Of a stretch of DNA of 50,660 nt, positions 6,037 through 39,400 are shown one piece after another. Source of the stretch: a virus; the IMG/VR virus record IMGVR_UViG_3300032304_000549, positions 1 through 50,660 of that record; one strand, given 5' to 3'. Made by a program: the position numbers and the translations under genes. The notes under the pieces were generated by a model, which searched no databases, was not told the DNA's origin, and worked only from the letters and a program-made list of their open reading frames with translations. The first letter of the stretch is position 1, and the number at the start of each line of letters is the position of its first letter.

Positions 6037-8547
6037 TTAGGTCATTGCCATCAGTTTAGAACGTTCCAATCTAACATCTTCTTTAGCCACAGATATCATT
6101 AGATTAATGTTAGTATTTAAACGATTTACTACATCTCTCACTGATATCTGAGTACCAGCTCCTATGACAGATTGCAATTGTTTTGGTGTAACAATAGCTT
6201 CCTTGCCATGTAGTGTTGCTCGTGTTCCTTTGCCAAAGTTGGCAAACAATGATCCAAATCTGCCCAATGTTCCAGTGTTCATTCCTAGATACGTATTTGG
6301 AAATTCTATTCGAAGTCTTTGTAATTCACTTTCGTACTCTGGTCGTTTTTTTAACTGATTAATTCTATAAGAATTTCTAGCTCCTGCTGTTTCAAACAGG
6401 GCAGGATCTGATATTACTCGCTTTAATGGAAAATAACTCATGCCAACCCCGGGCAGATTCATATCAATCACATTTAGTAGTGCTTCACGTTCTAATAAAG
6501 ATAAACCACCAAATTTTTCAGGACCTGGATCTAACGGTGCTTTGCCGTCTTTAGCTCTTAGTTCTCTTTCTGCTAAAATCTTTTCAATAACACCGGGGTC
6601 TTTGACATCTGATGCTGATGAGCTAGCTGCAAACTCGCTATCCAAATATTGAAAATGTCCTGAAGCACCCCTTTTTAGACTTTCAATAAAATAATTTTTA
6701 TCGTTGGTAGCAATCTTTAGAGGCTCTGCTGTGGTATCTTGTGTATTTGTACCTGATTCAGTAACACTTTTCATTCCAGGCTCGATTGTACTTCTAAGAT
6801 TTTTCTGAATTTGTTCTCCAGTTTTCTCTGCTCGTTCTTTATATTTTTTTGAATCTTCGATCCAACCAAATCGTTTAGCTATTCTTACAGCCAAGTCTGG
6901 AGCTAGATCTTCTAATGATGATCTAATAAAGTAGTTAATTTGATACTTCAACCAATCCATCATTAAGAAAAATGTGTCACCCATCATTGTAATTCCTTCT
7001 GGAGAAGTTATATTAGCAAAGAAGTTTTGTATGTACGGTAATGAATCTCTAGCAATTATTTGTAATTGTTTACCAAAGTCATTGATCATTTGAGGGATCA
7101 TCGCTATTTTAAATTCTTTAGCTAGATCTTTGAACACAGGCAGCAACGTTCTCATAAACGACAAGTGCACTTTCATAACAGCACGTTGAAACTTTCTTAG
7201 CACATCAGCAAACGCATCAGCATCCTTTTGTTCGTTTTTAATAGCTTCGATCTGTTTTATAAATTGTCCTCGAACATCATCAGACAGTTTTCCTTGCCGC
7301 ACTAGGTATTCCATTACTGGCGTTAGAGCTTTAGTTGTTTTTTTAGCCTGCTCATTGCCAGCAGCGGCAGCTTTTAGTAACGGATTTAACCGATCAACTG
7401 CTCTTTTGGCATTAGCTAATTGATCTCCCAACATACTATTAACTGCTTTGTTGAATACATCAGGGTTGATGTCTTTAGTTTTAGCTAGTCGTTGGATTTC
7501 ACCAAGCGCCTTATCAAAGTCTGGCCCTAATGCTATAGACAAAGCTAAAGCAGTATCATTCATTGTTGTTACATTTAAGTGTCTGGCCTTAAACAACTCC
7601 GCTCCTTCTGCTCCAAAAATCATAGCAAATCCGTTAAGAGCAGTTTCCATTCTTATTTGTTGTTGGTCGCCTAACTTACCAACACTTAGTTGATAGGATA
7701 TATCTTGACTAGCAGCAGCGGCAGCTTTCATTCTATCAACTCGACTCTTACCTGTGAGTTTTGTATACACATCTAACTGACTAGCATAGGCTAGAAACTG
7801 TTTACTAGTAGTGTTAAATTCATGTTCTTGAAATGCTTTTCCTCTTCTAGAACTCCAATTAAAATCAAGCAGTAGTTCGTTTTGTTGTTGCGAACTATAT
7901 CCCATTCTATCAAGAATGTCAGAAACCGCAGAGTTTTCCATAAACATTACTTCTGACATTCTTGAAAAATTTCTCATGCCAGAAGTAACAGTACCTCCTC
8001 CAAATGCTACTATCTTTTCGCTGTTTTCAGCAATTAAACTTATCAGCTCGTCGGTGCTTAATCCCATACGTAGAGCAGATTCTTTAAACTCAAACATGTC
8101 ATTGCCAAAGGTTGCTCCGTATTTGGTTGCTTGTTTAAGATCATCATTCCATGATTCAAGGATTGATATAGAAGTAGTAATAATTGACGCAAACCCTCCT
8201 AGAGCATCTCCTACTACTGGAAGTTTTTTAATTACGTCTTGTTCTAAAAATCTACTGTACGCACTGAGTTTATCTTCACCTCGTGCTAGCATTGAGGTAA
8301 AGTTTTTACCGGCAGTAACTGTGTTAACTAGACCAGCAGCCAGTGATGAAAATGCTTTTGATGCCGATGTTAAAACTTTATTAGTAGCTTTTATAGTATC
8401 GTCTGTATCACTAATAGTATTGTTGTCGCCACCGGACATATTGTTATATGCTAATACTATCTCGCGAAGAGTTGCTTCAGAAGCAGCATTGTTTATAACG
8501 CCAGATCCTAGACTGCTGCTGTAATATTCTACTGTATTTTTTGCCAT
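6037..8547 (-). CDS. Second tape-measure-like tail protein (paralogue of the upstream gene, no peptidase domain)
   Basis: The 836-residue protein is clearly homologous to the gene immediately upstream (8547-11075). Both begin MAK(N/T)TVE, carry NNxASEATxRE near residue 20, share a KLSAYxRxLxxxVIxKLPxxGxxLGG block, GATFGN, FSRMS and GAELFKA motifs, and end with a GTLGxxGSLFxxFGxGT...EAxxTPxQ(L/M)xSVI segment of the type common near the C-terminus of tape-measure proteins. It lacks the M23 peptidase present in its twin; that interval (about residues 600-760) holds unrelated sequence. Alternating hydrophobic/Gly stretches near residues 60-150 are typical of tape-measure proteins. The start overlaps the stop of the upstream gene (TAATG), so the two are translationally coupled. 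Probably part of the tail interior or tape-measure complex; T4 uses gp29. Confidence 0.65.
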   Translation of the reverse strand: MAKNTVEYYSSSLGSGVINNAASEATLREIVLAYNNMSGGDNNTISDTDDTIKATNKVLTSASKAFSSLAAGLVNTVTAGKNFTSMLARGEDKLSAYSRFLEQDVIKKLPVVGDALGGFASIITTSISILESWNDDLKQATKYGATFGNDMFEFKESALRMGLSTDELISLIAENSEKIVAFGGGTVTSGMRNFSRMSEVMFMENSAVSDILDRMGYSSQQQNELLLDFNWSSRRGKAFQEHEFNTTSKQFLAYASQLDVYTKLTGKSRVDRMKAAAAASQDISYQLSVGKLGDQQQIRMETALNGFAMIFGAEGAELFKARHLNVTTMNDTALALSIALGPDFDKALGEIQRLAKTKDINPDVFNKAVNSMLGDQLANAKRAVDRLNPLLKAAAAGNEQAKKTTKALTPVMEYLVRQGKLSDDVRGQFIKQIEAIKNEQKDADAFADVLRKFQRAVMKVHLSFMRTLLPVFKDLAKEFKIAMIPQMINDFGKQLQIIARDSLPYIQNFFANITSPEGITMMGDTFFLMMDWLKYQINYFIRSSLEDLAPDLAVRIAKRFGWIEDSKKYKERAEKTGEQIQKNLRSTIEPGMKSVTESGTNTQDTTAEPLKIATNDKNYFIESLKRGASGHFQYLDSEFAASSSASDVKDPGVIEKILAERELRAKDGKAPLDPGPEKFGGLSLLEREALLNVIDMNLPGVGMSYFPLKRVISDPALFETAGARNSYRINQLKKRPEYESELQRLRIEFPNTYLGMNTGTLGRFGSLFANFGKGTRATLHGKEAIVTPKQLQSVIGAGTQISVRDVVNRLNTNINLMISVAKEDVRLERSKLMAMT

Positions 8548-11075
8548 TATGCTATGTTAACCTGATTTTTTTCTATATACGACAATTGCGATCTAGATAA
8601 ATTTGTTCGTTCTGCCATAATGCTTGCTAATCTTTGAAAATTTCTATCTAACGATTCTAACATCTCTGTAGTAGCAATGTTACCAGCACCAGCTATCACT
8701 GAATTCATCTGTCCAGGAGTCATTACTGCTTCTATATCATCTAGTATTACATCAGTACCTGCTCCAAAATCTTTAAACAGCGAACCGTATTGCCCTAATG
8801 TTCCTGTTGAATGTGATTTCATATACTGATTAGGATCTACAAACTGGTCGTTATATTTGGTTTGCCAATGAAGATGGGGTCCTGAAGAACGACCAGTATT
8901 GCCGGTATAGCCCACATGTGTTCCGGGGTTGATAATAGCATTTTTAGGAAAAGATTTTTGTAATTTAAAAAGTTCGTCGCCTGCTGGATCCATGTGAGCT
9001 AATACACTGACTATTTTATTTTTTTCGTCCGATATTTGTACAAAATGTCCGGATCGTTTGTCATGTCCATAAAATATCTTGCCTCCATGCGGCGCAAGAA
9101 TTTTTTCTCCAATTGCTGCTTCATAGTCAGTGCCAGCATGAGGACCATCTGGTCGATTTGCTCCAAACGGACTAGTTATTCTTCTGCTTGCCATGCCTTC
9201 TAGAGGAGCACCAAATCTTGGAATATTAGCTGCTGTCATTTGTTTAATAGCTGCTTGAGATCGTGTAATTGCGTCTGATGATACGCCTTTGCTAGATTTG
9301 TCAGTACCGGGTTTTTTTAATTCGTATGGTGCTGGAAGTCCCTTTTCTCTTACTCTACTCTGTTTTTTCTCGTAAGCATCAAGTGCTTCACCTAATTCTT
9401 TATTCATGTCAGCTGCAAGATTTTCTGAACTTTGTAGTCCTAGAATATCTTTCATATAATATTTGAATTTGATGCCCATGGTATCGAAAAAATATGCTAC
9501 TTCATTCCATATAAAATCTCTACCGTTTTCATCTCCTAAATATTTGAAAAAAGTAATAACACCAGGCAGATATTTTTCCACCGAATCTTTTAAGAAAACA
9601 CCAAATTGTTTAACTTTACCCGCTAAGTCTTGCTTATCTAAGTATTCTCCTAGCTGGTTTAACAGTGGGTATAACATCTCCATCAACTGAAATTTTAAAT
9701 TCTGCATGGCCATTTCAAAGTCGTTAAGGAACTTTGTCAACGCTTCTCGTTGTTGCGTTTCTACTCTGGCCTGGGCAAACATTTCTCGCAGTTTAGGTTC
9801 AGTTAGTTTTGTAATGTCACCATGTTTGTTCAGCTGTTCTAATATTGGTTGAATTGCACGTCTAAATTTATCAGCATCGCCATAGCCAACAGCAGCGGCG
9901 TTGAGCATGTTCTGTATGCCGTTGGCAGTTTTGGCCGAAGCAAGCATAGATTTAATTAGTTTATTTTCAGTTTGAGCAGTATACTGTTCAACACTAGCTG
10001 TGCCATGTTTAGCAGATGATATAGATTCCCTCATATTCTTAGTCAGCTGTGGCATTAATACCATTAAATTTTGAGCATCTTCGTTGCCTGGAGGCATGCC
10101 TAGGAACAACGCTTTAAATAATTCAGCACCTGATTCACCATACATAGTAACATAGCTAGCTAACGCAGTTTGAATCTTGTCTCGTTGAGTGTTGCCTAAC
10201 TTAGCCATTTCCATTTTAAAGACAATGTCTTGATTTGCCACAGCCATTTGACTTTCAAGTTGTTTAACTGTCTTTCCGGTCAAATATCCCATTTGAGTCA
10301 GATGTAGTTGAAATCTTTCAAATGAAATTAGCAAAGCTGCGTCTGACCGTCTATCGTCACGTAGGCCCATACCAGCAATATCGATATATTTTATAAATGC
10401 TTCGTTAACGTCCTTGGCACTGTAGCCTATTTGTCTTAGACTTTGTGTTGCTAGTCCCCCTTCGCGATTTAATAATTTTGACATCCTACTAAATCGTTCA
10501 GCACCTTCTGTAACAGTTTTGCCAAGATTTAACATCACCGGCGAATTTGCAGACACCATCCGCATAAATTCATCTAGATCCATTGCTGATGCTGTAGCAG
10601 CTTTTGATGCTCTTAGAATACTGTTACCAAAAGTGGCACCAGTTGCTGTTCCTAATTTTAGACTTTCGTTCCATTCTTCTAAAACTTCAATACCATCATT
10701 TAGTAGTCCGCCAACACCGCCAAGTAGTCCGCCAAAAATTGGAAGTTTAGATATTACTTGATCGTTGAGCGTCCGTGTGTAAGCACTTAGTTTAGTATTA
10801 CCAGTAAGTAGCATAGCACCCATGCTGCCTACCGCACCAATAGCATTGCCAATTTGATTGCCTAGCCCGTCTGCTAGCTTAGACATAGTACTAGAACTTT
10901 TACGCAATTTAGCAGCGGGAGATGCTCCAGCGGTTTGAGCCCCGCTACCTCCTCCGCTACCACTGTTCTGTTTTACTGCCGCCAACAGTTCACGCATGGT
11001 AGCTTCGCTGGCCATGTTGTTAAGTACTGTGCCGTCTAATTGACCGCCAAGAATTTCTACTGTTGTTTTTGCCAT
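8547..11075 (-). CDS. Tape-measure-like tail protein with C-terminal M23 metallopeptidase domain
   Basis: The protein has 842 residues. The C-terminal third holds a complete lysostaphin-type M23 peptidase core: ITSPFGANRPDGPHAGTDYE with the zinc ligands His646 and Asp650 (HxxxD), then AHMDP and GYTGNTGRSSGPHLHWQ with His734 and His736 (HxH). M23 enzymes cut peptide cross-links in peptidoglycan, so this end probably helps the tail through the host wall. After it comes the GTLGQYGSLFKDFGAGT...EAVMTPGQ segment seen in tape-measure proteins. The rest is long, helical and Ala/Gly/Met-rich. It is the first gene of the leftward head block and lies back to back with the gp26-like chaperone, with a TATAAATA late promoter at 11138-11145 about 63 bases upstream. 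T4 gp29 (590 residues) has no peptidase. Confidence 0.75.
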   Translation of the reverse strand: MAKTTVEILGGQLDGTVLNNMASEATMRELLAAVKQNSGSGGGSGAQTAGASPAAKLRKSSSTMSKLADGLGNQIGNAIGAVGSMGAMLLTGNTKLSAYTRTLNDQVISKLPIFGGLLGGVGGLLNDGIEVLEEWNESLKLGTATGATFGNSILRASKAATASAMDLDEFMRMVSANSPVMLNLGKTVTEGAERFSRMSKLLNREGGLATQSLRQIGYSAKDVNEAFIKYIDIAGMGLRDDRRSDAALLISFERFQLHLTQMGYLTGKTVKQLESQMAVANQDIVFKMEMAKLGNTQRDKIQTALASYVTMYGESGAELFKALFLGMPPGNEDAQNLMVLMPQLTKNMRESISSAKHGTASVEQYTAQTENKLIKSMLASAKTANGIQNMLNAAAVGYGDADKFRRAIQPILEQLNKHGDITKLTEPKLREMFAQARVETQQREALTKFLNDFEMAMQNLKFQLMEMLYPLLNQLGEYLDKQDLAGKVKQFGVFLKDSVEKYLPGVITFFKYLGDENGRDFIWNEVAYFFDTMGIKFKYYMKDILGLQSSENLAADMNKELGEALDAYEKKQSRVREKGLPAPYELKKPGTDKSSKGVSSDAITRSQAAIKQMTAANIPRFGAPLEGMASRRITSPFGANRPDGPHAGTDYEAAIGEKILAPHGGKIFYGHDKRSGHFVQISDEKNKIVSVLAHMDPAGDELFKLQKSFPKNAIINPGTHVGYTGNTGRSSGPHLHWQTKYNDQFVDPNQYMKSHSTGTLGQYGSLFKDFGAGTDVILDDIEAVMTPGQMNSVIAGAGNIATTEMLESLDRNFQRLASIMAERTNLSRSQLSYIEKNQVNIA

Positions 11076-11155: not shown

Positions 11156-12058
11156 ATGACAGATTTTGATTCAAACAAATTTCAAGGGCAGGCTCCTGCT
11201 CCTCAACAACCAGCTACAGCGAACCCGCTAGCTAGCTTTTTTAGGCAACCAAAGATTTATGTGTCGCTGCCTTCCAAAGGAGAATTTTACACAGAAGGAT
11301 CATTAGTAAAAACTCCTAACAACGAATATCCTGTGTTTGCTATGACAGCCAGAGATGAACTGTTGTTTAAAACTCCTGATGCGTTAATGAACGGAGTTGC
11401 TACTAGAGAAGTTATTACTAGTTGCATTCCTAACATTTTAGACCCGTGGAAAATTCCTAGTTTAGATGTTGATGCTATATTGTCAGCAATCCGCATTGCT
11501 ACCTACGGTGAAGAAATGGAAGTAACTGTACGTTGTCCAAAATGTGAAAATGTCAACGATGCTGTTGTTGACCTACGATCTGTTTTAGATAGACTTAACA
11601 AAATACAATTTGATACTAAAGTTGAAATCGGTAATGAAATGGTTGTACATCTTCGCCCAATGACCTATGAAGAAATTACCAAGACAGCACTTAAAGCATT
11701 TGAGCATCAACGTATCTTTACAGTGATCAACGATGACTCAATTGACGAACAAGAAAAATTAAAAATGTTCCAAGAAAGTTTTATCAAACTTACCGACCTT
11801 ACTATTGACACAGCAGTAAGATGTATTACCAAGGTCGAAAGTGCTGCTGGTACTACAGATAATCCAGAATTTATCAAAGAATTTTTACAAAAGACCGACA
11901 AAGGTGTGTTTGATCAAATTAACATTGCTGTTAGCAAGACTAGAGAAACAGGTAACCTCAGCAGTTTCCACAGCAAGTGTCAAAAATGTGAACACGAATG
12001 GGAAGTGGAGTTGACCATGGACCAATCGGATTTTTTCGACAAAGGCTTTCGACGTTAA
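11156..12058 (+). CDS. 26: gp26-like baseplate hub / tail assembly chaperone, zero-frame product
   Basis: The 300-residue protein starts at ATG 11156-11158, preceded by AGGTGG; an in-frame GTG at 11147 overlaps that ribosome-binding site and is not favoured. Family features of the T4-type baseplate protein gp26 in marine phages are the IYVSLPSKGEFYTEGSLVKT strand near residue 33, the TARDELLFKTPDALMNG segment, and two Cys-x-x-Cys knuckles, CPKCEN near residue 124 and CQKCEHEWE near residue 276, which probably bind one zinc ion. gp26 in T4 is needed for hub and tail-core assembly. The last 10 codons contain a canonical -1 slippery site followed by a stem-loop, so a fraction of ribosomes should extend it into the overlapping frame ending at 12267. 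Confidence 0.8.
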   Translation: MTDFDSNKFQGQAPAPQQPATANPLASFFRQPKIYVSLPSKGEFYTEGSLVKTPNNEYPVFAMTARDELLFKTPDALMNGVATREVITSCIPNILDPWKIPSLDVDAILSAIRIATYGEEMEVTVRCPKCENVNDAVVDLRSVLDRLNKIQFDTKVEIGNEMVVHLRPMTYEEITKTALKAFEHQRIFTVINDDSIDEQEKLKMFQESFIKLTDLTIDTAVRCITKVESAAGTTDNPEFIKEFLQKTDKGVFDQINIAVSKTRETGNLSSFHSKCQKCEHEWEVELTMDQSDFFDKGFRR

Positions 12059-12090
12059 GTATCCCTGAGATATTAGCCGAGTCGAAAGCC
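12031..12090 (+). promoter_or_regulatory. Programmed -1 ribosomal frameshift signal
   Basis: The zero-frame codons GAT TTT TTC give the heptamer T TTT TTC at 12031-12037, a standard X XXY YYZ slippery site where both tRNAs can re-pair one base back. A 6-base spacer (GACAAA, 12038-12043) leads into a perfect 10-bp stem, GGCTTTCGAC (12044-12053) with GTCGAAAGCC (12081-12090), and a 27-base loop that contains the zero-frame TAA (12056-12058). A second small hairpin follows (CTTGA/TCAAG, from 12091). The -1 frame is open and codes for conserved-looking protein. All three components of a classical frameshift element are present with correct phase and spacing. Confidence 0.85.
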
Positions 12091-12267
12091 CTTGACGATC
12101 AAGCAAGGCAAATTAAATTAGAAGCCATGCGGTCAGTTTGGTACATGCGTGGAGGATTGTCTTTTGCTGAAGCTATGAATCTCAGTTGGGACGAAAGAGA
12201 ACTGGTCCTTGAGATAGTCAAAGACAACATGGATGTTACTAAAACTTCTGGATTGCCGTTCTTTTAA
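12038..12267 (+). CDS. Frameshift extension of the gp26-like protein (tail chaperone 'GT'-like product)
   Basis: This is the -1 frame after the slippery site; translation would continue ...DQSDFF then RQRLSTLSIPEILAESK and on to LPFF, adding about 76 residues. The segment AMRSVWYMRGGLSFAEAMNL followed by WDERELVLEIVKDNM looks like a compact helical domain and is not an out-of-frame shadow, because it extends 209 bases beyond the zero-frame stop. The only in-frame ATG is at 11998, deep inside the gp26-like coding sequence and without a Shine-Dalgarno, so independent initiation is unlikely. In lambda-like and Mu-like phages the analogous G/GT pair chaperones the tape-measure protein. Its stop shares the TTAA at 12264-12267 with the convergent gene. 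The alternative is a separate small protein from 11998. Confidence 0.75.
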
Positions 12268-13334
12268 CGAGCACTCATAGCTTTGAGGATCTGTAGCACC
12301 TGAGTTTTTTGTGCGGGATCCATCTTTAATATTTCACCAAACGCACTAGACATCACTCCCATATGCTCACGAGTTAATGGAGTTCCGGACATGTATCCTG
12401 TGATAGCTTTCTTTAATTGATTAGGATCTACACCGGGCAACATGTCAGTTAGCTTACCGTAATTGAGATTACCTTTGGTCTGTGTCTTAGCATCATCCTT
12501 ACCACCAGCTAGTCCTCGTTTTAATCCAGCAATAAATCCCTGTGGTGAATCATCGCCACCATCTGCGTTGTCGGCAGCATTACCACCTGCTTTGTTGATA
12601 GCCTGTGTAGTAGCAGCACCTTGACCGCTGATCATAGCATCTAATTTTTGACCCATATTGGCTTTAAGAATATCTTGAACAGCAGCTTTAATAATAGAAT
12701 CCACAGTGGAATTTTTAAGATCAACTTCATCAATTACAACTTCTTGTACAGGTCTATATGTTGTACCTGCTAGATGAGCAATACGACTTAGTTCATCAAT
12801 ACTCTCTGCTGGATTTTTTATGCCTTTGCGTTTGTAAGCAGGTTCTTCATAGTCGTCCCAATTTTTTTCATCGCTGTTAGTTTTTGGAACGTCAGCATCG
12901 TCTTGCTGATCAGCTGCTTGGTCTGCTGGCTGCTCTGGATCATCTAGAGTAGGCTCAACTCGGCCAGATGGATTAGGAGTTGCCATTGGCTCGCCTGCGT
13001 TTTTACCAATGCCTAAAGTATCTCTCATGTCTTTAGCTGGCATAGTTCCAGCTGCCATTGCTGCTTGTTTGATAGCAGCTTCAGCACCAGCAGTTGGAAA
13101 TCCGTTAGCACCTAAGAACGCAATAATAGCATCTGAATTAGGCTTTTGTCCGCTTTGACCTAGGTAATAATCAAATTGTTTACGTAGCCCATTAGCCATA
13201 GTTGCTGTATTAAGAGCACCTTTAGCGGTTTGACTTCCAAGTTTAGAAGCAATACCTAGACCAGCCCTTTTTAACATACCTACAGGTGCTTCATCTACTT
13301 GCTGTTTTTGAGATACAATATCAGTAATTTTCAT
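12264..13334 (-). CDS. Late protein of unknown function, 356 residues
   Basis: I do not recognise a domain. The protein starts MKITDIVSQKQQVDEAPVGM, has an Ala/Gly-rich helical first third, an acidic Pro/Asp/Gln linker near residues 120-160 (PEQPADQAADQQDDAD), a helical middle (VIDEVDLKNSTVDSIIKAAV) and a C-terminal helix ending QVLQILKAMSAR. A late promoter (13365-13372) and AGGA ribosome-binding site precede it, so it is made with the structural proteins and is probably a virion or assembly protein. It is convergent with the gp26-like frameshift product and their stop codons share TTAA, leaving no room for a terminator. The upstream side is the structured RNA region. Confidence 0.7.
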   Translation of the reverse strand: MKITDIVSQKQQVDEAPVGMLKRAGLGIASKLGSQTAKGALNTATMANGLRKQFDYYLGQSGQKPNSDAIIAFLGANGFPTAGAEAAIKQAAMAAGTMPAKDMRDTLGIGKNAGEPMATPNPSGRVEPTLDDPEQPADQAADQQDDADVPKTNSDEKNWDDYEEPAYKRKGIKNPAESIDELSRIAHLAGTTYRPVQEVVIDEVDLKNSTVDSIIKAAVQDILKANMGQKLDAMISGQGAATTQAINKAGGNAADNADGGDDSPQGFIAGLKRGLAGGKDDAKTQTKGNLNYGKLTDMLPGVDPNQLKKAITGYMSGTPLTREHMGVMSSAFGEILKMDPAQKTQVLQILKAMSAR

Positions 13335-13822: not shown

Positions 13823-14257
13823 TTATTTTGCCTTTTTATGTTCTTCTAGACGCTGTCTAAGTATGTTTGATCCGCCAACTCTGACATTTATAATGCCATT
13901 ATAATAGTCATCTGTTTCTAAAACTCTGCGTTCAAACTGCTCTCTAGCTTCTAAATAACTCATTTCTGCCTTAGATTTACAAAGATAAAGTATTTCTCTA
14001 GTGAAGTTTTCCGGACCTAGTGCTTGGACGTCTGCGTTGAGCCTATCAGAAGAACCAAAGTAGTCACGCCAATCGCTTTCTACAACTGATCTTCTTTTAA
14101 GTTTTTTGCCTTTGAGTGGGGGTTTAGTACGTTTGAATTGTGCTAGTTTCTTGCCTATGTACTTCTGTCCGGTGTGTAGATTCGTAATAAGATACACGAA
14201 GCCAATGTAGCCTTCAGGTAGTTCTTCTACGATTTGATTTTGATATGTCCACAGCAC
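13823..14257 (-). CDS. GIY-YIG nuclease-like protein
   Basis: The 144-residue protein has an N-terminal GFVYLITNLHTGQKYIGKK segment that fits the GIY...YIG signature (G-F-V-Y-L-I in place of GIY, then YIGKK). A basic stretch with candidate catalytic Arg (RRSVVESDWRDYFGSSD), the Glu-rich SYLEAREQFERRVLE helix and a terminal YYNGIINVRVGG strand complete the expected layout of the small catalytic domain. No separate DNA-binding domain is visible, unlike typical homing endonucleases. It is the last gene of the gp55-gp47-gp46 group, starting directly after the 76-residue gene, and its stop is followed by the folded RNA region. It could be a free-standing mobile endonuclease or a resident repair/recombination nuclease; the compact operon position favours the latter slightly. 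Confidence 0.75.
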   Translation of the reverse strand: MLWTYQNQIVEELPEGYIGFVYLITNLHTGQKYIGKKLAQFKRTKPPLKGKKLKRRSVVESDWRDYFGSSDRLNADVQALGPENFTREILYLCKSKAEMSYLEAREQFERRVLETDDYYNGIINVRVGGSNILRQRLEEHKKAK

Positions 14258-26900: not shown

Positions 26901-27471
26901 CGTATATCTCTTGACAAGATCCTACGATACATCTTATAGACGATGGTTAACTGGCGGCCAACTATCAAAACCAGAAACACCAACATCAGAATCGTTAAAC
27001 ACACAATTTGGAGCTAACCTTACTGCTATTAAATCTATCAGCGATGAAATAGTATACCACCCTGTAAAATATTTTCCATTATTTGGTGATAAGGCTGCGT
27101 CAGACTTTCAAGCAGTCTTTAAAGTGGTAAAAAATCCAAATCGGGTGTTAAATGACAATGACCTAAAGGTGAGAATTGTCAACAGTATTAATGAATTTTT
27201 CTCTGTAGAGAATTGGGACTTTGGTGATAGATTTTATACAGGTGAATTGATTACGTATATCATATCACAAAATTCTCCAGATATTAGTAATATGGTATTG
27301 GTTCCAAAACAGGAAAATCAAGCCTACGGAAGTTTGGTTGAAATTAAAGCACAGCCAGACGAAATTTTAGTAAGTGCTGCTACTGTTGATAACATTGAAA
27401 TTTTATATAATATCACAGCAACAGAATTAAATCTATTGAATAGTCAAGTTGTAACTAGGACGGGTCAGTAA
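23962..27471 (+). CDS. 6: Baseplate wedge protein gp6, long form
   Basis: The 1169-residue protein begins with the gp6/J-like signature region: NADFKSYDFENLRRVMVAYI, FIESSEFIALIDLIAFLGQS, LAFRIDLNSRENFIELADRK, ESVLRLARMLAYNAKRNQSA. Later GEDYNLAPLSSSQEVLKVKA (near residue 433) and the C-terminal NRVLNDNDLKVRIVNSINEF, NWDFGDRFYTGELITYIISQ match gp6-type proteins, which dimerise into the inner iris of the baseplate. T4 gp6 has 660 residues; the extra 500 residues here are mostly an insertion between about residues 540 and 960, beta-rich and containing DSDDDGVIDNPDSFDE, a calcium-binding-like Asp loop. The stop overlaps the gp7 start (TAATG). Confidence 0.88.
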   Translation: MTTTTRQNNLILAEDWTRIYQTFKNADFKSYDFENLRRVMVAYIKENYPEDFNDFIESSEFIALIDLIAFLGQSLAFRIDLNSRENFIELADRKESVLRLARMLAYNAKRNQSASGLLKFESVSTTEDLVDSNGTNLARQSIVWNDPSNSNWYEQFIQVLNAAMIENVEFGKDQANKTIDGIRTEQYRLNSLSTAVPVFSFSKIAGGRNTSFEILSTGIGSAEFIFEEAPLPGRQVGFVYRQDGKGTASINTGFFMIFKQGSLESAEFSITAPTPNEIVSIATQNINNSDVWLYSLDASKSLTNYWTPVGSVVGNNIVYNSLNSNQRNVYSIITQSNDAIDLQFSDGVYGNLPQGNFRVYYRVSNGFSYVIPPNDMKNISVSVPYINDRGIQHTLTISLGLEYTVENSAPSETIDSIRSKAPAVYYTQNRMITGEDYNLAPLSSSQEVLKVKAINRTSSGISRSFDIIDASGKYSKINVFADDGLVYRKDEERNYSFKYSNKNVVLNFIRNTIQPALSSFQTYNFYLTNFDKIFTADVNVKWIKSTTEENASTGFFGNVFDSFPIKVGTYTTSNLRYIEIGGLVKFIPPSASQAFYRGELVNYDPANKDHKKFVWTKVVKLVGDGTNAGKGNLNSGKGPITFSEVIPTGSLPSQVVSKFVSTIPTDIENEILNLTFSNETFGLRYDVLAGEWKVISSTNIDLENDFNLGQAGDSLNANVDSSWLVAFVYDGDEYRVRVRGTEYIFSSVSQNRFYFDRGEKVYDSRARTLIKDQIKVLGINESPQSSIASNIELADAILALRNSNPLFTASDVLSIVDRQQTLKDNISFEIADSVRFQDGYKSADSIKLSFYDSDDDGVIDNPDSFDEIVGTDLLTKYIFFQQVQDENGFDVFNYVPNINNRFVIKDKEINANVNEYDHNQLIYFYDQDENIIKRVDLITRSFILEPSYVAYVGRDNLKFQYIHNASESRRIDPSVSNIIDVYLLTRSYDTSYRRWLTGGQLSKPETPTSESLNTQFGANLTAIKSISDEIVYHPVKYFPLFGDKAASDFQAVFKVVKNPNRVLNDNDLKVRIVNSINEFFSVENWDFGDRFYTGELITYIISQNSPDISNMVLVPKQENQAYGSLVEIKAQPDEILVSAATVDNIEILYNITATELNLLNSQVVTRTGQ

Positions 27472-30400
27472 TGTCAAATAAAATTTTTAAGAAAAGCGAG
27501 CTTCCGTTAAGAAGAACGGTTGAGTTACTTCCTGATACATTTAAAACTAGTACCAATGATAAATTTTTATCAGCTACTTTAGATGCCCTAGTACAACCAG
27601 GAACACTTGATAGACTATCGGGATTTGTTGGCAGAAAATACGGAAAGACTTACAATAGTCAAGACATCTACGTTGATGTCGAAGCATCGTTGAGATCTGC
27701 CTATCAACTAGAACCATCTGTTGTAGTTGAAGCCAACGGCAAAGTTAAAAAATCTTATGACTACATAGATTTTAAAAACCAATTAAAGTTTTTTAGCAAT
27801 ATCTCAGAAAGAGATGATACTGTAACAAACCAAAAACAATATACATGGAGTCCGCCTGTTGACTGGGACAAGTTTGTAAATTACAGAGAATACTACTGGT
27901 TGCCAGTTGGGCCCGAAACGTTGTCTGTAGCAGGACAAACAGAAGAAGTAGAGTCAAAATACAGAGTTAGATCCGACGGGCAAAATGAGTGGATTTTTTA
28001 TCCAGACGGATTAAAGCGTAATCCACAATTAACACTGTATCGAGGCCAAACCTACAGCTTTGATGTGAATAGCCCGGGTGATCCTTTCTTTATTAGAACG
28101 GGAAATCTGTTAGGCGAGCAGTTAAATTATAACAAAGGGGTCACAAACAACGGAACAGAAGTAGGCACAGTTACGTTTCAAATTCCGCTCGATGCTCCTG
28201 ATATGCTTTACTACCAAAGCGGGACAAACATCAATCGTGTAGGTAGTTTTGTCATTGCTTCCGTTACTGACAATTCTTTTATCAATGTTGAACAAGAAGT
28301 TTTAGGAAAAATAAATTACACTAGTTCTAATAACGTAGTGTTTACCAACGGTTTAAAAATTCAGTTCATTGGAAAAGTTGAACCAGCAATTTACAAAGGC
28401 ACTACTTGGGTAGTTGAGGGTGTTGGCGAATCTATTAAACTGGTTAACTTTGCTGAATTAGAAATTCCACCTATCGAAGTATCGGATATAGAAATAACAT
28501 TTGATGACGGAGGTTTTGACACACAACCTTTTGACGATGCTAGTTCTTACCCAACACAAAAAGATTATATCACGATAAACAGAGCAAGCAAGGACAAAAA
28601 TCCATGGAGCCGCTATAATAGGTGGTTCCACAGATCAGTAATTGAATACGCAGCAGCCAAGAACGGTGTTCCTCCTGCGATAACAGAAATTGACAGAGCA
28701 AAACGGCCAATTGTAGAATTTCAACCAAATCTTCAATTGTTCAATCACGGATCAGTTTCTAAAAAATCAATAGATCTAATCGATGATTTTACATCAGATG
28801 TATTTTCAACAATTGAAGGATCAGCGGGTTACAATATTGACGGGCAGCAATTAAATGATGGCGACCGAGTGTTGTTTGTTAACGATCCTGATCCGTTTGT
28901 TAAAAATAAAATTTTTGTAGTTAACTTTATTAGAGTACAAACAAGTGCCAATATTCTTAATAGAATACAAATAAGTCTTGTTGAAGCTGAAGATTCAAAT
29001 CCTGTATTCGGTGAGTCGGTGATTGTGTCAAAAGGCAGCCCGTCGAATAAAGGAAGAATGTTTCACTTTGACGGGGATAACTGGGTAAAAAGTCAGCTCA
29101 AAACAAAATTAAATCAATCACCGTTATTTGATTTATACGACAGTGACGGAGTTTCGTTCTCAGATAGTCAGCGTTATGAAACTTCTACATTTTTTGGATC
29201 GGAGCTTTTAAGCTACAAAATAGGAACCGGTCCGATAGATACAGAACTTGGTTTTCCTTTGAGTTATCTAAACATCAATAATTCGGGAGACATTGTTTTT
29301 GAAGTTGATTTTGAAATTGATAAGTTTGTTTACCAATCGTTTGGTCAAACAGTTGTAGGTATAACCGCATCAGGATTTTTTAAAAATACAGAATCTAACG
29401 AATTTTCAAATAGCTGGATAGATTATAATTCTACACTATATCAACCAATCGTCGAAACTACAGTAGTATCGACTAATACTAATACCATAGAATCAAAAGC
29501 ATGTCTATGGAGCACAGACGCAACAGAGCATATTTTATTTTACATTAACGGTGAAAAATTTAATGGAACATTTACTGATTCTATAGGAGTTGAGTCTAGA
29601 ACATTTGTATTTGACCAAACCTTTAACAGCGGTGATGCTGTTACAATTAAAATCTATACCAATGCCGAACCTAATCTAGGATACTACGAGATTCCGTTAT
29701 CACTAGAAAAAAATCCGTTAAACCAAAATCTAACTCAGTTTACATTAGGTCAGGCTAATGATCATGTAAGATCGATGATTGAAGTTGATACAGACTTCCA
29801 AGGCATATTTCCCGGATCAAGCAACATTAGAGATATTTCCAACTACCGTCAAAACGGTCGTAGATTTATTAAGCACTCGGGATTGAGTATAGCAGCCTAT
29901 CCGTTGATGTGTGACAAAGATATTAATCTAGTAAAGTCATTAAGATACGCTGCCAGCGAATATGAAAAATTTAAAAATAATTTCATTAAGCTAGCAGGCG
30001 ATCTTAACTTTGATCAACGAAGCACAATTGAATTCGTCGATGTAATTTTAGAAAAAATGTCTAAGACTAATGTAATTGAGTTTCCATTCTCAACATCGGA
30101 CATGATAGGTAGCGGAGCATTTAGAGCAATAAATTACACAGTCGAAGATGAAGGAATAACAACTTTTGCTCTTAGTCAAAAATTTGATCTTGAAACAATA
30201 TCACAGCAGGCCGTGTATGTTTACGTTAATGATTCGCAATTATTATACAAATTTGATTATGAATTTGATTCAACCTTTGGTTTTGTGAAATTATTAGTTG
30301 AATTAAACGAAGGCGATCGAATTGAAATTAGAGAGTACTTATCAACTTCGTATAACTTTATTCCCGAAACTCCTACTAAGCTAGGGCTTTATAAAAAGTT

Positions 30401-33400
30401 TACTCCTAGAATTTATCTCGACGATACATTTATTGAGCCAGCCGAAGTTATTCAAGGGCACGACGGAAGTATTATTATTGCGTTTGGGGATTTTCGAGAT
30501 CAAGTAATTTTAGAATTAGAAAAGAGAATTTATAATAATATTAAAATTAATTATGATTCTTCAATTTATGATATTGACAGCCTTTCTGGCGGATATCAAT
30601 CAAATGCGTTATTTGAAATTAGTGTTGTTAATGCGGTTATTGAACCAGAATTTTTAAAATGGGCTAATAATTTAGGTATTGACATTTATAAAAATGATGT
30701 GTATCAAGCTGAAAATCCATTTACTTACACATACTTTAGAGCATCGGACAAACAAAAACGTGTAAAATTGCCACAAGCATGGCGTGGAATATACGATTAC
30801 CTATACGACACCGATAGACCTCATATTTGTCCATGGGAAATGTTAGGATTTTCTGAGCAGCCTGTTTGGTGGGAAGATGAATACGGTCCTGCTCCGTACA
30901 CCAACGGCAACTTACTATTATGGGAAGATCTAGAACAAGGATTAATTAGACAAGGACCCACTGCTGGCATTAATTTGAGATATGCTAGACCCGGCTTGTT
31001 GACCTATTTGCCAGTCAATGATATCGGGCAGATAATATCGCCCCAAGAAGCAACAGCAATTATCGATTATTCATTGAATCGAATCAACGAAGACTATCAA
31101 TTTGGTGACCATGGTCCTGTAGAAAATGCTTGGAGACGCAGTTCGTTATATCCGTTCTCTCTAATGATAGCTGCCGCTATTTTAACGCCGTTTGATTTTA
31201 TTTCATCAAACTTTGATAAGACTAAAATTACTAAAAATATATTAGGTCAATTGGTTGATAAAAGTACTGGTACATTTATAAACAAAGACTCGCTAATTTA
31301 TAGTTTAGAAAATTCCCCTGCTGGATTGTTCACTTACGTACAAAATTATCTAAAATCTAATTCTATGAATCTGTCGGTACTAACTGACATTTTTAAAAAC
31401 ATTGATATTAAATTAACGCATAGAATTGGTGGATTTGTTGAAAAAGACAGACAAAGATATATTTTAGAAAGCAAGAGTCCCACTTCAAAGTCGGCTGCGG
31501 TGTTTATCCCGCCCGAAGATTATCAAATCATATTCAACACCAGTACACCTGTTAAGTCGATTAGTTATTCGGGTGTGGTTGTAGAAAAAGTTGACGGGGG
31601 TTTTAAACTATTCGGCTACGATAGACTAAATTCTTTCTTTACCTGCTACGAGTTTTATCAACAAATAACCGACCCGATTATAACAGTTGGAGGCGCCAGC
31701 GAAAAGTATCTTGATTGGACAGCTGAAAGATTTTACGGAAAAGGCACAGTAGTGAGATATCAATCGTTGTACTATAGATGTATAACAAATCATACATCTG
31801 GATCAACGTTTATTTTTGAAAACTTTGTACGTCTTCCTGCGTTGCCTTTAACTGGAGCAATTGAAGCAATTAAACGAACTAAGTTTAATAAAACTTCGTT
31901 AAAAAGAGTAGCCTATAATACTGTGTTTACCACAGTCCAAGAAGTAGTTGATATTATTTTAGGCTATAGTGAATGGTTGAAAGATCAAGGTTTATTATTT
32001 GATGAATTTAATAAAGAGCTAGCATCGCCAAATGATTGGGAATTGTCAGCAAAAGAATTCATGTTCTGGACATCGCATAACTGGGCAATAGGGGCGTTAA
32101 TAACACTTAGTCCTGCCGCCGCAATGTTAAAAATTGCCAATGTTGGCAGTGTGGCTGAAAATATTTTAGATAATTTTTACGATTATAATATTTTTAGAAA
32201 TGACGGTACTAAAATTCCAGCATCGGATATACAAGTTTATAGAAGTTACAACGAATTTATTCTAACTCCGTTAGATACAACTGCTGAAGGAATTTATTTT
32301 GCAAAAATAAATTTTGTACAAAAAGAACACGTTGCGGTTTTTAACGATAAAACAATGTTTGGCGATGTTATATTTGATAAAGGACCAGGATATAGACAAG
32401 AGCGTATGAAGCTAGTTGGCTTTAGAACCACTGACTGGGACGGCGATTATACTAGCCCGGGATTTATCTACGACGAAGCTAATATTGATCCGTGGGAATC
32501 ATTTAAAGATTACAAGTTAGGTGATATTGTACAGTACAGACAATACTATTATGTAACTAAAAAGTCTCACACAGGTACATCAGAATTCGATGCTAATAAC
32601 TGGGAACGATTAGATTCTTACCCTACTGCTGGATTAGTCGCAAACTTTGATTACAAAATTAATCAAATTGAAGATTATTTTGAATTGGGTTATCAAGGAA
32701 TAGACGACACTGAAAAACAATTAGCAAGACATACTATTGGTTATCAAAAGCGAAACTATCTTGAGGAACTAGCCGAAGATGAAGTTACACAATTTAGAAT
32801 TTATCAAGGGTTTATTAGAGAAAAAGGAACTCAAAATTCTATAACAAAAATATTTGACAAACTAAGCAAATTAGATCAAGATGCTATTGAACTAAAAGAA
32901 GAGTGGGCATTTTTGCTAGGTTCGTTTGGCGGGTCGGCACAATTTAAAGAACTTGAATTATTAATAGACCAAAAAGATATTAAACTAAATCCTCAACCAA
33001 TTATTATCGATAGTAGAGGATTGTCAAAAGTTAACTATCAGAATTATATTCTAACATCACCAAATGATTTTACTATCGGTAATGCCGATTACAAGTTCCC
33101 AACCAAAGCCTATCCAGTTGCTGAATCGTCAGCTGGCTATGTCTATTCTGGCGATGTTGATTTTATTGTTAAGACACGAGATAATCTATATGCTCTTGAT
33201 ATTAATCAGCTAAAAGACGGGTCAACTGTTTGGGTAACATTTGACAATACCGGCTGGACTGCATTGCGATACACTATTACTGATGTGATTATCGGAGCAG
33301 TTGCGGTAGTTGATACAACATCAGTGACTATGGAAACCAACAAACCCCATGGAATAAAAGTTGGTGAAATTATTGGAATTAACAATGTTAGATTCTTAGA

Positions 33401-36400
33401 AGGATTTTGGAAAGTTAAACTAGTTGCTCCAACAACTATAATAATTGAAATTGCTGGCTATGACGAAGAGCCTGTTATTGATGAAAGTTCCTTTGCTACT
33501 ATTTCAATATTTGAACCATTGCGAGTTGGTTCTTATGACAGTCTAGTATCTGACAGATTTGCGGCATATCGTGAAGGCACTAAAGCATGGTTAGATGACA
33601 ATGGTAGCGGAAACTGGGAAGTTTTAGAAAAACGAAGAGTTTATAGACCTATTGCTGTAGCAAACTACGGTGTTGCGTTCCCAACAGGAACTGGTAAAAG
33701 CGTACTATTCATTGAGAGTAGAAATCAAACTGTATCAGCGAATCCTGGACAGGTTGTTCCAACAGGAGAAGTTATTAGAGAATCTGCTGTTGTTGTTTAC
33801 GGGCAGAGTCAAGAGGGATTAATACCTTTACAAATTCTCAATCCTAATTCTAATCTAAGACCAACGTTCTTGGGAACATACGGCGAAGTGTTATCGGCTA
33901 GCAAAGACGGTCGATGGCTAATGGTAGGATCGCCTAAGGTTTCGAATATTCCGAGTAATTATAAAGAAACATTTAGTCCTACAGCAACATATAATCCTGG
34001 AGACACTGTTCTCTATGCCGGAAAGTTATGGCAAGCACAGAGAACTGTAATTGGTGATGGCTCGACAATAGACATAGCTAGTGATGATTGGACCCCAGCA
34101 ACCGAACACCTAGCCAATCCGCTAGGTATTGGTCTATACGATGTTAATCAGGGATATAGACAGCAGGGTGCTTTAGAAATTTTTGAATATGACGAAATAT
34201 TCAGTCAGTATCAATTACGTCATACAATTATAAGTCCCCGCCCTGCTCACGGCGAGCTTTTTGCGTCAACGATCACTTTGGGTAAACGTGAAGGCATTGA
34301 GGGAACTAGCGGAGATGTTACCTTAACAATATCTGCCATTGATGAAGTTGGCGGAATCTTAGCAGTTTCAGCTCAAGGCGAAAGCGGACTTGTTGATGCT
34401 AGATTTTCAAACGTTAGTGGAGTTGATATCAGTCTTCCTGGATCAAACGCTACGTTTGATGTTTTAAAGTCTAACAACACCTACAATGTTTTAGTTAGAA
34501 CCGGTGGAACAAGATATGCTGTTGGGGATAGAATTAAAATTACCGGAAGTAATTTACTAGGACTAACACCGTTTAATGATTTAATTATAACAGTTACCGC
34601 TGTAACGTCAAGCGGTGAAATTGTTGGCTCGGCCACTTATAATAATATTTCTGGTATTAACTCAATACTGCCAACTGTAGCGGCTACTTTCCGCGTAGCA
34701 AAATCAGGCACCAGATATTCGGTGACAAAAATTAGCGGCGGCGAAGGCTATACTTCGAGAAGTATTGTTAGATATTCTGGCCGTTTATATGGCTGTATTA
34801 AAGATACAAGAGTAGACTTTGGTGTTTGGGATCCTAACAGAACTTATCAAATTGGCGACGTAGTAAAATATCCAGCAAATTCTACAGCATATTATGCAGC
34901 ACTAGGGCTGAACACAGGAGTATTACCTACTAATGAAACAACTTGGGAAGTAGCAGAACCGATATTTCCAACTAATCAAGAATATTGGGAACAAGTATCA
35001 GGAGCAATTTTTGCTGAAACTGCTGTTGACTGGTCTGACTTAAATTTACAAGGCAATAGAGTTAATTATACTGCTGGAACAATCATAGTTATTCCGGGCA
35101 GTCAATTAGGTGGCATTGACGGCGAACACAATATCACAATTCGTGTAAATTCTGTAACTGAAGAAACAGCCATTGATAATTACTCATTTAGAGGAACCGC
35201 GTCATCTGGAATTATATGGTCTGGGCTTGCTACACCAGGAGAGCGACAATTTAACGATCTTCAGGGTGAAGATATTAGCGATGCTGGCCAAGGCGCAATT
35301 TTTGATGTAATACGTGAAAATGGAAATTATTCGGCTGTAGTTAATGTTGCTGGAACACGTTACAATGTCGGAGATCAAATACGCCTACTGGGAACTACAT
35401 TAGGCGGAGTTGAAGAATCGTATTATATGCTTGTAGGAGCCCCTGGTTCAAGAGATGAATCGGGCAGATCTTATTTGTATAAGTTCGATGGTCTAGGTTG
35501 GAAACACCTTGACGATCCTAATTTTGTAGGAGTGTATACATCATCTAAAAATTATCCAGTTGGATCTCGGGTGTGGTATAACACTTCGTACTGGCAAGCA
35601 ATTGAAAACGTTCCAGCATTACCTAACAATCAACCGGGAGTTGGTAGTTGGGAAGAAGTTGCTGAAATAAACATTGGAATAATGCCAGCATCGGTAGCTT
35701 ATGCCGACGACGGGTCAACAATACAACAAGGGTTACTTGGTGATGTTGAATTCTTAAATATCGGTAGCAATTTTGGAACTTCGTCAGCATTCAACAAAGA
35801 TGCTTCATTATTAGTAGTATCTGCTCCTAAAAACGATACTGCTGATTTTGAAAATTTTAGGGGAGTTTGGAAAAACAATATCAGCTACTCTGCTGGTCAA
35901 GTAGTTAGGAAAGGAATCTTTTACTACAACTGTTTAATTGACAACATTAATACAGCACCAGAAACAGCACAGTTAGTGTGGCAAGAAAACACAGATTCGA
36001 CTCTTGGAAAAACAGGCGCAGTGTTTATCTATGAACGCGACGAGGTTGACACATACAATTTGATTCAAACAATTGATGCTGATCAGGTAGAATTAGAAGC
36101 AGGCGATGAGTTTGGTCACAAAGCAATACTCACAGAATCTGGAACTAGACTTTTTGTCTCAGCACCGAACTTTGATTATCTAGGAAAAGATCAAGGTAGT
36201 GTTTTTGTATTTGATAAAGTTGCTGGACAATTTGTATTAACACAAAAGCTCAACGGTATTGTCATGGAGCCAGGTGAACGATTTGGCGCTAACATATCAG
36301 TATCTCCAGACGAGAAAACATTAGCAATATCAGCTGAAGGTGCTAGAACTTATAAAACAACAATTTTTGATAGCGGACAAACAGCATTTGACAGATTTGT

Positions 36401-39400
36401 AACTAACTTTAGAGATTCTCAAGGTATTACGGGCAAAGTTTATGTATACAATAATTTTACAGGAGCATTTGTCCTTTCAGAAATATTAGATCAAGGACTT
36501 AACACCAACGAAGACTTTGGCCAAGGGTTGGCAGTGGCCAACAGTTCTATAATTGTTGGATCGCCGGCCTACGTATCAGATGACCCTGCCTTCAACACCG
36601 TTCGTATTGGTCGCTTACAAAAGTTTGATAAAATCCCCGGAGTTAAACCTTGGTATACTATTAGAAAACAAGCTAATCAAGTTAATATTGATTTGTTAAA
36701 AACATTATCGTTGTACGATAAATTTAACAATGTAAAGATTGCTGATATAGATATATTGGACCCGTACAAAGGAAAAATATTATCGGAAGCAGATCAACAT
36801 ATTAATTTTAAAACTTCGTATGATCCGGCTGTTTATTCTGTAGGCAACGATTTATCAGCAGTTGATATAGATCAATCATGGCAGTCGGATAAGGTCGGAT
36901 TAATTTGGTGGGATCTATCCGCTATAAAGTGGAATCTCAGCGAACAAGATTCTCTAGCATTTAGAAATGGTAATTGGGGATCGTCGGCTGTTGGTAGCTC
37001 GGTTGATGTCTACGAATGGGTCGAGTCATCACTAAGACCCAGCGAGTGGAACCAGATTACAGGAACTTCGGAAGCGTTTGTTGAAGGCATAAGTGGCACC
37101 GCGTTGTACGGAGATAATTCAAATTATTCTGTGAGAGTTATATTAGATACAACAACAGGCCTACCGTTGAACACAATTTATTATTACTGGGTAAAGAATA
37201 AATCTACTATTCCGTCAACAGTTAATAGAACATTTAGTGCTCAACAAATTGCCAGTTATATTTCATCTCCGACGTCGTCCGGGTTGCCATACGCAATATT
37301 AACTTCTGAAAACACTCTGAGTTTGGTTAATACTTCATCAGTTGTTGATCAAGACGAGTTTTTAGTTAATATTCAATTTTACGAAGAAGAAAAAGACATT
37401 AATCTAGTACACACTGAGTATCAACTATTATCAGAAGGCGCATTGACGCTGCCTAATACTGAGTTAGAAAATAAATGGATTGACAGTTTAATTGGTGAAG
37501 ACATTGCTGGACAGGCTGTTCCTGATAGAAAATTATCTTCTAAATTAAGATATGGAATATCAGCAAGACCAAGACAAACTATGTTTGTTAATAGAAACAA
37601 TGCTGTTAATCTAACAATTGAATATATCAACAATATTCTTAAGAACAAACCGTTCGCAGAAAATATTGATTATACCAATTTAAACTTAATAGATAACGCA
37701 CCTTCAAACATTAAAAATCTATACGATCAAGTGTTAGAAACCGAAGCTGAATTAAGATTTATCGCAACGTCTAAAATTAAAACTGCTGTGCTAAAAGCAA
37801 ATATTGTTAATGGACACATCAACACTGTTGATGTCATTGACGGCGGATACGGATACAAACTTCCACCTAATATAAAAATTGTTGGATCGGGTACTGGTGC
37901 GGTGTTACGTACAGTATTAAATCAAAATGGTTCAATCACTTCAGTTACAGTAGTAAATCAAGGCAAGAAATATCTAACAGCATCGTTGATTGTAAGACCG
38001 TTTGCTGTATTAGTTAACACAGATTCTACTGTAAATAATTTTTGGAGTATCTACTCCTTAGATGAAAAGAACAAAGAATTTTACAGATCAGCAACACAGT
38101 CGTTCGACACTACTAAATTTTGGAATAAAGTTGACTGGTGGTTATCACCGTTTAATGAAACATCTAAAATTAGAAAATCAATAGCTGGCTTATACGAAGA
38201 GCCGGGTTTAGAGTTGGCTCTTGGCGAATTAGTTCGTTTAGACAACTACGGTGCTGGCGGATGGGCAGTGCTTGAAAGAGTAACTGCTGATCAAGCTGAC
38301 ATCGCCGACAAATATAGATTAGTGGGAAGAAAATTAGGAACTATACAGATTATCAACAAGTTCTATAATACTGACACTGAGTCAACTGGTTACGATTTAA
38401 CTCAAGCATTTGACAGCAACAAGTACGATACTTCTGCTTCAATTGAATTTAGAAATATTCTTAGAGCTGTTAAAGAGGATATTTTTGTTGACGAACTAGC
38501 GGTCGAATGGAATAAACTATTCTTTGCCTGTGTTCGATACGTGTTTTCAGAACAACTATATGTTGACTGGGCATTTAAAACAAGTTTTGTAAATGCCACA
38601 CATAATGTGGGATATTTAGAAAAGAAATTAAATTACAAAAATGATAATTTATCTAGCTATCAGTCTTATATTGAAGAAGTTAAACCGTATAGAACTAAAA
38701 TTAGAAATTATGTTAGCAAATATTTTAATATTGAAAACGCAAATCAAGTAACTACTGATTTTGATTTACCTCCGGTATGGGACGCCAATACTAATTCTGT
38801 TAAAATAATTAACAATAATTCTTTAGAAACAGATCAATACCCGTGGAAATTATGGAAAGATAATAATCATTATTCAGTTGTTGAAATTAAACTAGTCAGT
38901 GTTGGCACAGGATACTCGTCTGTACCTCAAATTGTGTTTGCGGGTGGAGGTGGCAGCGGCGCTACTGCTCAAGCATATATTTCTAATGGTAAAATTTCTA
39001 AGATTTTATTAACTAATTCCGGATCTGGATATACGTCTGCTCCAACAGTGAGTGTTGTTGGCGGTGTCGGCAGCAACTTACAAAATGCTGCTAAGGCAAT
39101 TGCTGTAATTGGTGATTCAAAAGTTAGAACGTTTGATATGAAAATTAAATTTGATAGGATTTCTAAAACTCCTAAATTTAAATCATATAGCTTTGACGAA
39201 AAATTTAAAGAAACAGAAAATTTTGTAGCCGGCAATAAGCAAACAGCCTATCGATTAAAATATGCTCCGTCATTAGATCAATCTACAATATCTGTGTTAG
39301 TAAACGGCAGTAGATTATTAGCAAGTCAATACACAATCACACTTTCAGAGGAGCGTATTAACGGAGTTACAGAATTAGTTGGTAATCTTATTTTAAATGT

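Follow-up and report, generated by a model that had tools for sequence, protein, structure and literature searches.

The gp26-like gene at positions 11156 to 12058 (+ strand) of the window very probably gives rise to both a short and a frameshifted long form of a tail assembly chaperone, following the logic of the lambda G/GT pair; this reading is drawn from nucleotide sequence and from analogy. By window we mean the whole stretch of DNA analyzed, an IMG/VR virus record of 50,660 bases. A preliminary description of this DNA had proposed a programmed -1 frameshift and a longer fusion protein in this gene, and such an event is supported by the slip site, its phase, the coding -1 frame and their conservation.

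Most ribosomes would translate the zero frame up to the TAA at 12056 and release a short form of 300 aa. Some ribosomes, with their P and A sites on TTT TTC, would slip back one base and re-pair on TTT TTT, presumably at a rate that leaves the majority in the zero frame, and the hairpin at 12044 to 12090 may aid this slippage. The slipped ribosomes would then read on to 12267. Their product would be a fusion of about 370 aa that is predicted to end in a helical T-like domain of 76 residues. If the pair works as lambda G/GT does, the short form may serve as a coat for the tape-measure protein, and the long form may in addition bring in tail-tube subunits, neither form remaining in the particle.

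Slip site, stem and reading frames in the window

The short form (11156 to 12058, 300 aa) matched PF12322 (T4_baseplate) with 56.6 bits (E 3.9e-15), the curated cut-off being 24.5, and its best PHROG match was phrog_150, "baseplate hub" (E 7e-21). The gp26-like identity that had been assigned to it was thus borne out. PF12322 also matches in 22 of 23 related records, SCTP-2 being the exception. When the structure predicted for this short form (mean pLDDT 79.0) was compared by fold, it matched predicted structures of viral proteins that carry the names baseplate hub assembly protein, T4-like, and gp26; searches of the PDB with the short form yielded no fold match with E ≤ 0.001 and nothing credible by sequence.

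Close to the 3′ end of the gene, the zero-frame codons read GAT TTT TTC GAC AAA GGC TTT CGA CGT TAA. They include the slippery heptamer T TTT TTC at 12031 to 12037, a heptamer of the form X_XXY_YYZ in zero-frame phase as in G/GT-type genes. It is followed on the same strand by a 6-nt spacer (12038 to 12043) and by a stem made of the 5′ arm GGCTTTCGAC (12044 to 12053) and the 3′ arm GTCGAAAGCC (12081 to 12090). The two arms are perfectly complementary over 10 bp and enclose a loop of 27 nt, within which lies the zero-frame TAA (12056 to 12058). For the heptamer, its phase, the 6-nt spacer, the 10-bp stem and the stop in the loop, the coordinates proposed in the preliminary description were exact.

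From the slip site, the -1 frame extends on the + strand from 12031 to 12267 (stop at 12265 to 12267) and constitutes a C-terminal T-like extension of 78 aa, corresponding to 78 codons including the shared FF and 76 after it. The long form, i.e., this frame fused to the upstream zero frame, would count about 370 aa. The earlier claim of about 76 open codons with no usable start of their own holds for the open frame; concerning the start, an ATG is in fact present at 11998, 33 nt 5′ of the heptamer, but a scan found no Shine-Dalgarno-like motif for it. Between the preceding stop and +96, the only starts of the -1 frame in the window are this ATG at -33 and an ATG at +96, which falls within the conserved extension domain.

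Conservation of the slip site and of the -1 extension

Relatives of the window were compared among IMG/VR records (n = 44, identity down to 40%), many of which are near-duplicates, so that the number of independent lineages is lower. TTTTTTC was found in phase in the window and in 44/44 relatives (45/45 sequences), 10, 19 or 25 nt before the zero-frame stop. In all of them the -1 frame is open for 69 to 74 codons past this stop, and the C-terminus of the extension often resembles TKKSGLPFF. Protein matches pointed to 63 phage records, of which the loci of nine cultured jumbo phages, eight of them annotated, were opened. The slip site and the -1 extension are present in all nine, with TTTTTTC in eight and TTTTTTT in Stenotrophomonas phage CM1. 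A sequencing or assembly error could in principle have split one gene, as a single-base change would join both frames, but the arrangement recurs in 44/44 further contigs and in cultured phages that were sequenced separately, which makes the probability of such an error practically negligible, and this candidate was ruled out on those grounds.

None of the eight annotated records (Atu_ph07, Phosso, 121Q, Vibrio phage 2.275.O, MIJ3, RaK2, SCTP-2, XaC1) joins both frames, and the putative frameshift has thus so far gone unannotated in cultured jumbo phages. The extension is unannotated in MIJ3 and RaK2; in the six others, it or its 3′ part is annotated as a separate hypothetical gene.

In a wider set of 140 loci (Vi01-type, T4-type, HTVC008M and KVP40 loci are outside it), TTTTTTC or TTTTTTT occurs in phase in every locus (140/140). 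Among 34 representatives drawn from this set, the FF codons at the site are TTT TTC in 32 and TTT TTT in two; elsewhere in the 34 genes, one FF pair out of 13 is written TTT TTC. The slip-site arrangement is more than a product of chance.

Past the zero-frame stop, dN/dS ranged between 0.03 and 0.23 in nine of 12 pairs, the other three being saturated. As expected of a G/GT-type gene, the open -1 frame is under purifying selection and would be read as a C-terminal extension. The 25 extensions compared align over their length, and the resulting profile finds the extension of CM1, which was outside the profile, with an E-value of 6.5e-11. The AlphaFold2 model of the extension is helical and confident (mean pLDDT 87.9). 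Searched against T4-type phages, the extension profile gave a weak match in HTVC008M (E 0.0025) and no match in T4, KVP40, S-PM2, P-SSM2, phiM12 or Vi01.

Such a conserved frame could also be a small gene in its own right, expressed from a start that belongs to it or through stop-start coupling, no fusion being made. The separate annotation in six of the eight jumbo records goes in this direction, and 12 of the 34 representatives (121Q, Atu_ph07, Phosso, L032, L034 and seven of cyanophage/phiM12 type) possess an ATG 9 to 15 nt after the heptamer start, so that a free T domain may additionally arise in these phages by stop-start coupling. However, in five representatives (L008, L016, L023, L035, L050) the -1 frame lacks any ATG, GTG or TTG between the preceding stop and +96, which makes it unlikely that they produce the complete extension as a free protein from a usual start. 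The starts of the window offer little more: the ATG at -33, besides its missing Shine-Dalgarno motif, is GTG in L014 and L015, and any -1-frame start 5′ of the slip site is missing from L003, L008 and L013, while the ATG at +96 would begin inside the domain. Also, a separate gene would leave the in-phase heptamer of the 140 loci unexplained. We therefore consider a separate gene very unlikely and retain the frameshifted fusion.

The hairpin downstream of the slip site

Folding of positions 12038 to 12100 gave -22.4 kcal/mol (z = -4.44), and none of 200 shuffles was as stable. The stem was also compared with the rest of its own gene: the best unbroken stem with its 5′ arm 4 to 10 nt after the heptamer was ranked against 650 own-gene positions, the stacking energies being approximate. 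In the window, none of the 650 other positions equals the stem at that spacing. Of the 34 representatives, 25 exceed 95% of their own-gene positions and 18 exceed all of them. The remaining nine show no outstanding simple stem, and the hairpin is thus not universal.

The preliminary description had named conservation of the heptamer, the stem and the overlapping frame among relatives as a check. Conservation was observed for the heptamer (44/44) and the -1 frame; the stem is kept by its position, but its sequence differs between groups (GGCUUUCGAC, UAGGAUCUU, GCUUUUGACUCU, UGUUCUAUAAUAAU). Such differing sequences point to selection for structure, bearing in mind that the members of a group are not independent. 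In the window's group, eight of the ten stem pairs are invariant and one changes from A-U to U-A; in a second group, one pair changes from G-C to A-U. These double changes, one per group, were matched by 172 of 500 and 90 of 500 shuffles. As such counts are not rare in shuffles, covariation supports the hairpin without proving it, and the case for the hairpin rests on the position-matched stems since covariation is too weak.

Suppression of synonymous changes, also part of that check, was observed in the arms in the window's group. The four- and six-fold degenerate codons with an invariant amino acid that lie wholly in the arms (L at +15, S at +18, A at +57) keep the same codon throughout, whereas 19 of the 20 such codons outside the arms vary in the -1 frame of the same group (R at +12, at the arm edge, was set aside). 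In two other groups, codon constancy in the arms is less clear. A search of Rfam with positions 11900 to 12300 returned a single miRNA match, far below the cut-off.

The position of the stem also bears on the level at which the frames would be joined. The site is a run of six to seven T, on which RNA polymerase rather than the ribosome might slip. However, bacterial polymerase slippage usually needs longer runs, and the single fixed phase, followed in many groups by a stem at the spacing typical of ribosomal slippage, fits tandem tRNA slippage. Transcriptional slippage thus appears extremely unlikely to us, and slippage of the ribosome, probably favored by the hairpin, is the mechanism that we propose.

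Relation to T4 genes 26 and 51 and to lambda G/GT

The slip site is kept across relatives, with Vi01-type loci and T4 as exceptions. Seven further T4-type genomes were checked: TTTTTTC is present in P-SSM2, S-PM2 and KVP40, TTTTTTT in phiM12 and HTVC008M, and the canonical heptamer is absent from Vi01 and T4, as it is from 18/18 Vi01-type contigs. Among IMG/VR contigs, TTTTTTC was in phase in 80/80 of cyanophage type (the best 80 of 532) and in 3/3 of 121Q type. The Vi01-type loci (L181-L198 and L090, Ackermannviridae) have an open -1 T-like extension after the gp26-like gene without the canonical heptamer, which suggests another route in some T4-type phages.

In T4, gp26 and gp51 both match PF12322, and in 4/4 complete T4-type contigs (a count that omits two truncated loci) the heptamer is absent and a separate, neighboring gp51 gene is present. 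Thus, the link to the T4 hub-assembly proteins gp26 and gp51 that the preliminary description had drawn finds support in the shared family and in the contigs with a separate gene 51 and no slip site. T4 gp26 belongs to the same Pfam family as the window protein and has the same FF end, encoded TTC TTT with no slip site. The FF pair would thus be a feature of the protein, the feature of the slip being TTT TTC preceded by a codon whose last base is T. T4 differs from the window in having two separate genes; gp51, with a C-terminal part similar to the cyanophage extension, reads like a fused form.

In profile comparisons, the alignment of the jumbo and cyanophage fusions spans columns 110-391 of 399 (E 1.2e-12); that of the cyanophage fusion and T4 gp51 extends to residue 245 of 249 (E 2e-5, probability 77%). 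Against single T4 gp26 and gp51, the jumbo fusion scored weakly (probability 19% and 11%), and the jumbo extension alone gave no match to the gp51 tail. The link of the jumbo fusion to gp26 and gp51 therefore rests on PF12322 and on the cyanophages. A review (PMC3004832) lists gp26 and gp51 of T4 as hub assembly chaperones, describes gp51 as required for assembly and missing from the final particle, and cites genetic evidence for gp26 in the T4 hub. By analogy with these two proteins, the window protein would act as a chaperone.

On balance, we lean toward an ancestral origin, within the T4-type superfamily (jumbo phages, cyanophages, pelagiphage, KVP40), of a frameshift at TTTTTTC yielding short and long gp26-type chaperones. 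In many lineages the hairpin would have kept its position while its sequence was replaced, with the stop in the loop in the window's group, and genes 26 and 51 of T4 would be a later product, a duplication having given one short and one fused gene while the slip site was lost. This would offer a reason for the presence of two related "hub assembly" proteins in T4: 26 and 51 would be equivalent to the short and long forms of relatives with a single gene.

Xu, Hendrix and Duda (2004) is a reference for the lambda gpG/gpGT -1 frameshift. The slip site of lambda is GGGAAAG. The window differs from lambda by its TTTTTTC site, by a gene divergent from the tape-measure-like genes, and by a different and larger short form with CxxC pairs. 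The two systems are alike in a short form, a -1 frameshift near the 3′ end (predicted in the window) and a longer fusion with a T domain, as given for lambda in a published description (PMC5009743).

Such a frameshift had been thought undescribed in T4-type phages. This does not hold, as Vladimirov, Gautam and Davidson reportedly identified T4-type tail assembly chaperone genes in 2022 and are cited for genes of this kind; the novelty of the window is thus limited to that of a well-supported additional member. The phage Adele paper cites Vladimirov et al. 2022 for poly-T slip sites in short-form genes of T4-like phages (PMC12846349), and the PRFect paper cites the same work for T4-like phages that instead have a gene for the short form and another for the fused long form (PMC10274946, PMC10885494). 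The chaperone locus of Adele belongs to other families (Vandenendeviridae/Andersonviridae) than that of the window and lies upstream of the tape-measure gene (PMC12846349). Also, peptides suggesting frameshifts are the content of a supplementary table named in a paper of 2026 on T4-like Klebsiella phages (PMC13119998). Among the literature entries listed, with most subscription journals outside the search, none was recognized as a description of the frameshift of the jumbo lineage or of its hairpin. Apparently new here are this jumbo/aquatic lineage and its replaced hairpin.

G/GT genes usually, though not by definition, lie on the same strand as the tape-measure gene and just upstream of it, a layout given in the preliminary description. 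This is not what the window presents: the tape-measure-like genes (6037 to 11075) run in the opposite direction, with 5′ ends facing that of the chaperone gene. The nearer one (8547 to 11075, - strand) encodes a protein with an M23 peptidase domain, found by domain search, and the second (6037 to 8547, - strand) its paralogue (28% identity, E 3e-76); both are putative tape-measure proteins. The two adjacent proteins (842 and 836 aa) are full-length paralogues, with the M23 domain match in the first only. Elsewhere in the window, an ORF of 144 aa (13823 to 14257, - strand) may encode a GIY-YIG endonuclease, judging by motif only, and an open reading frame of 4889 aa (27471 to 42140, + strand) occupies about 29% of the record.
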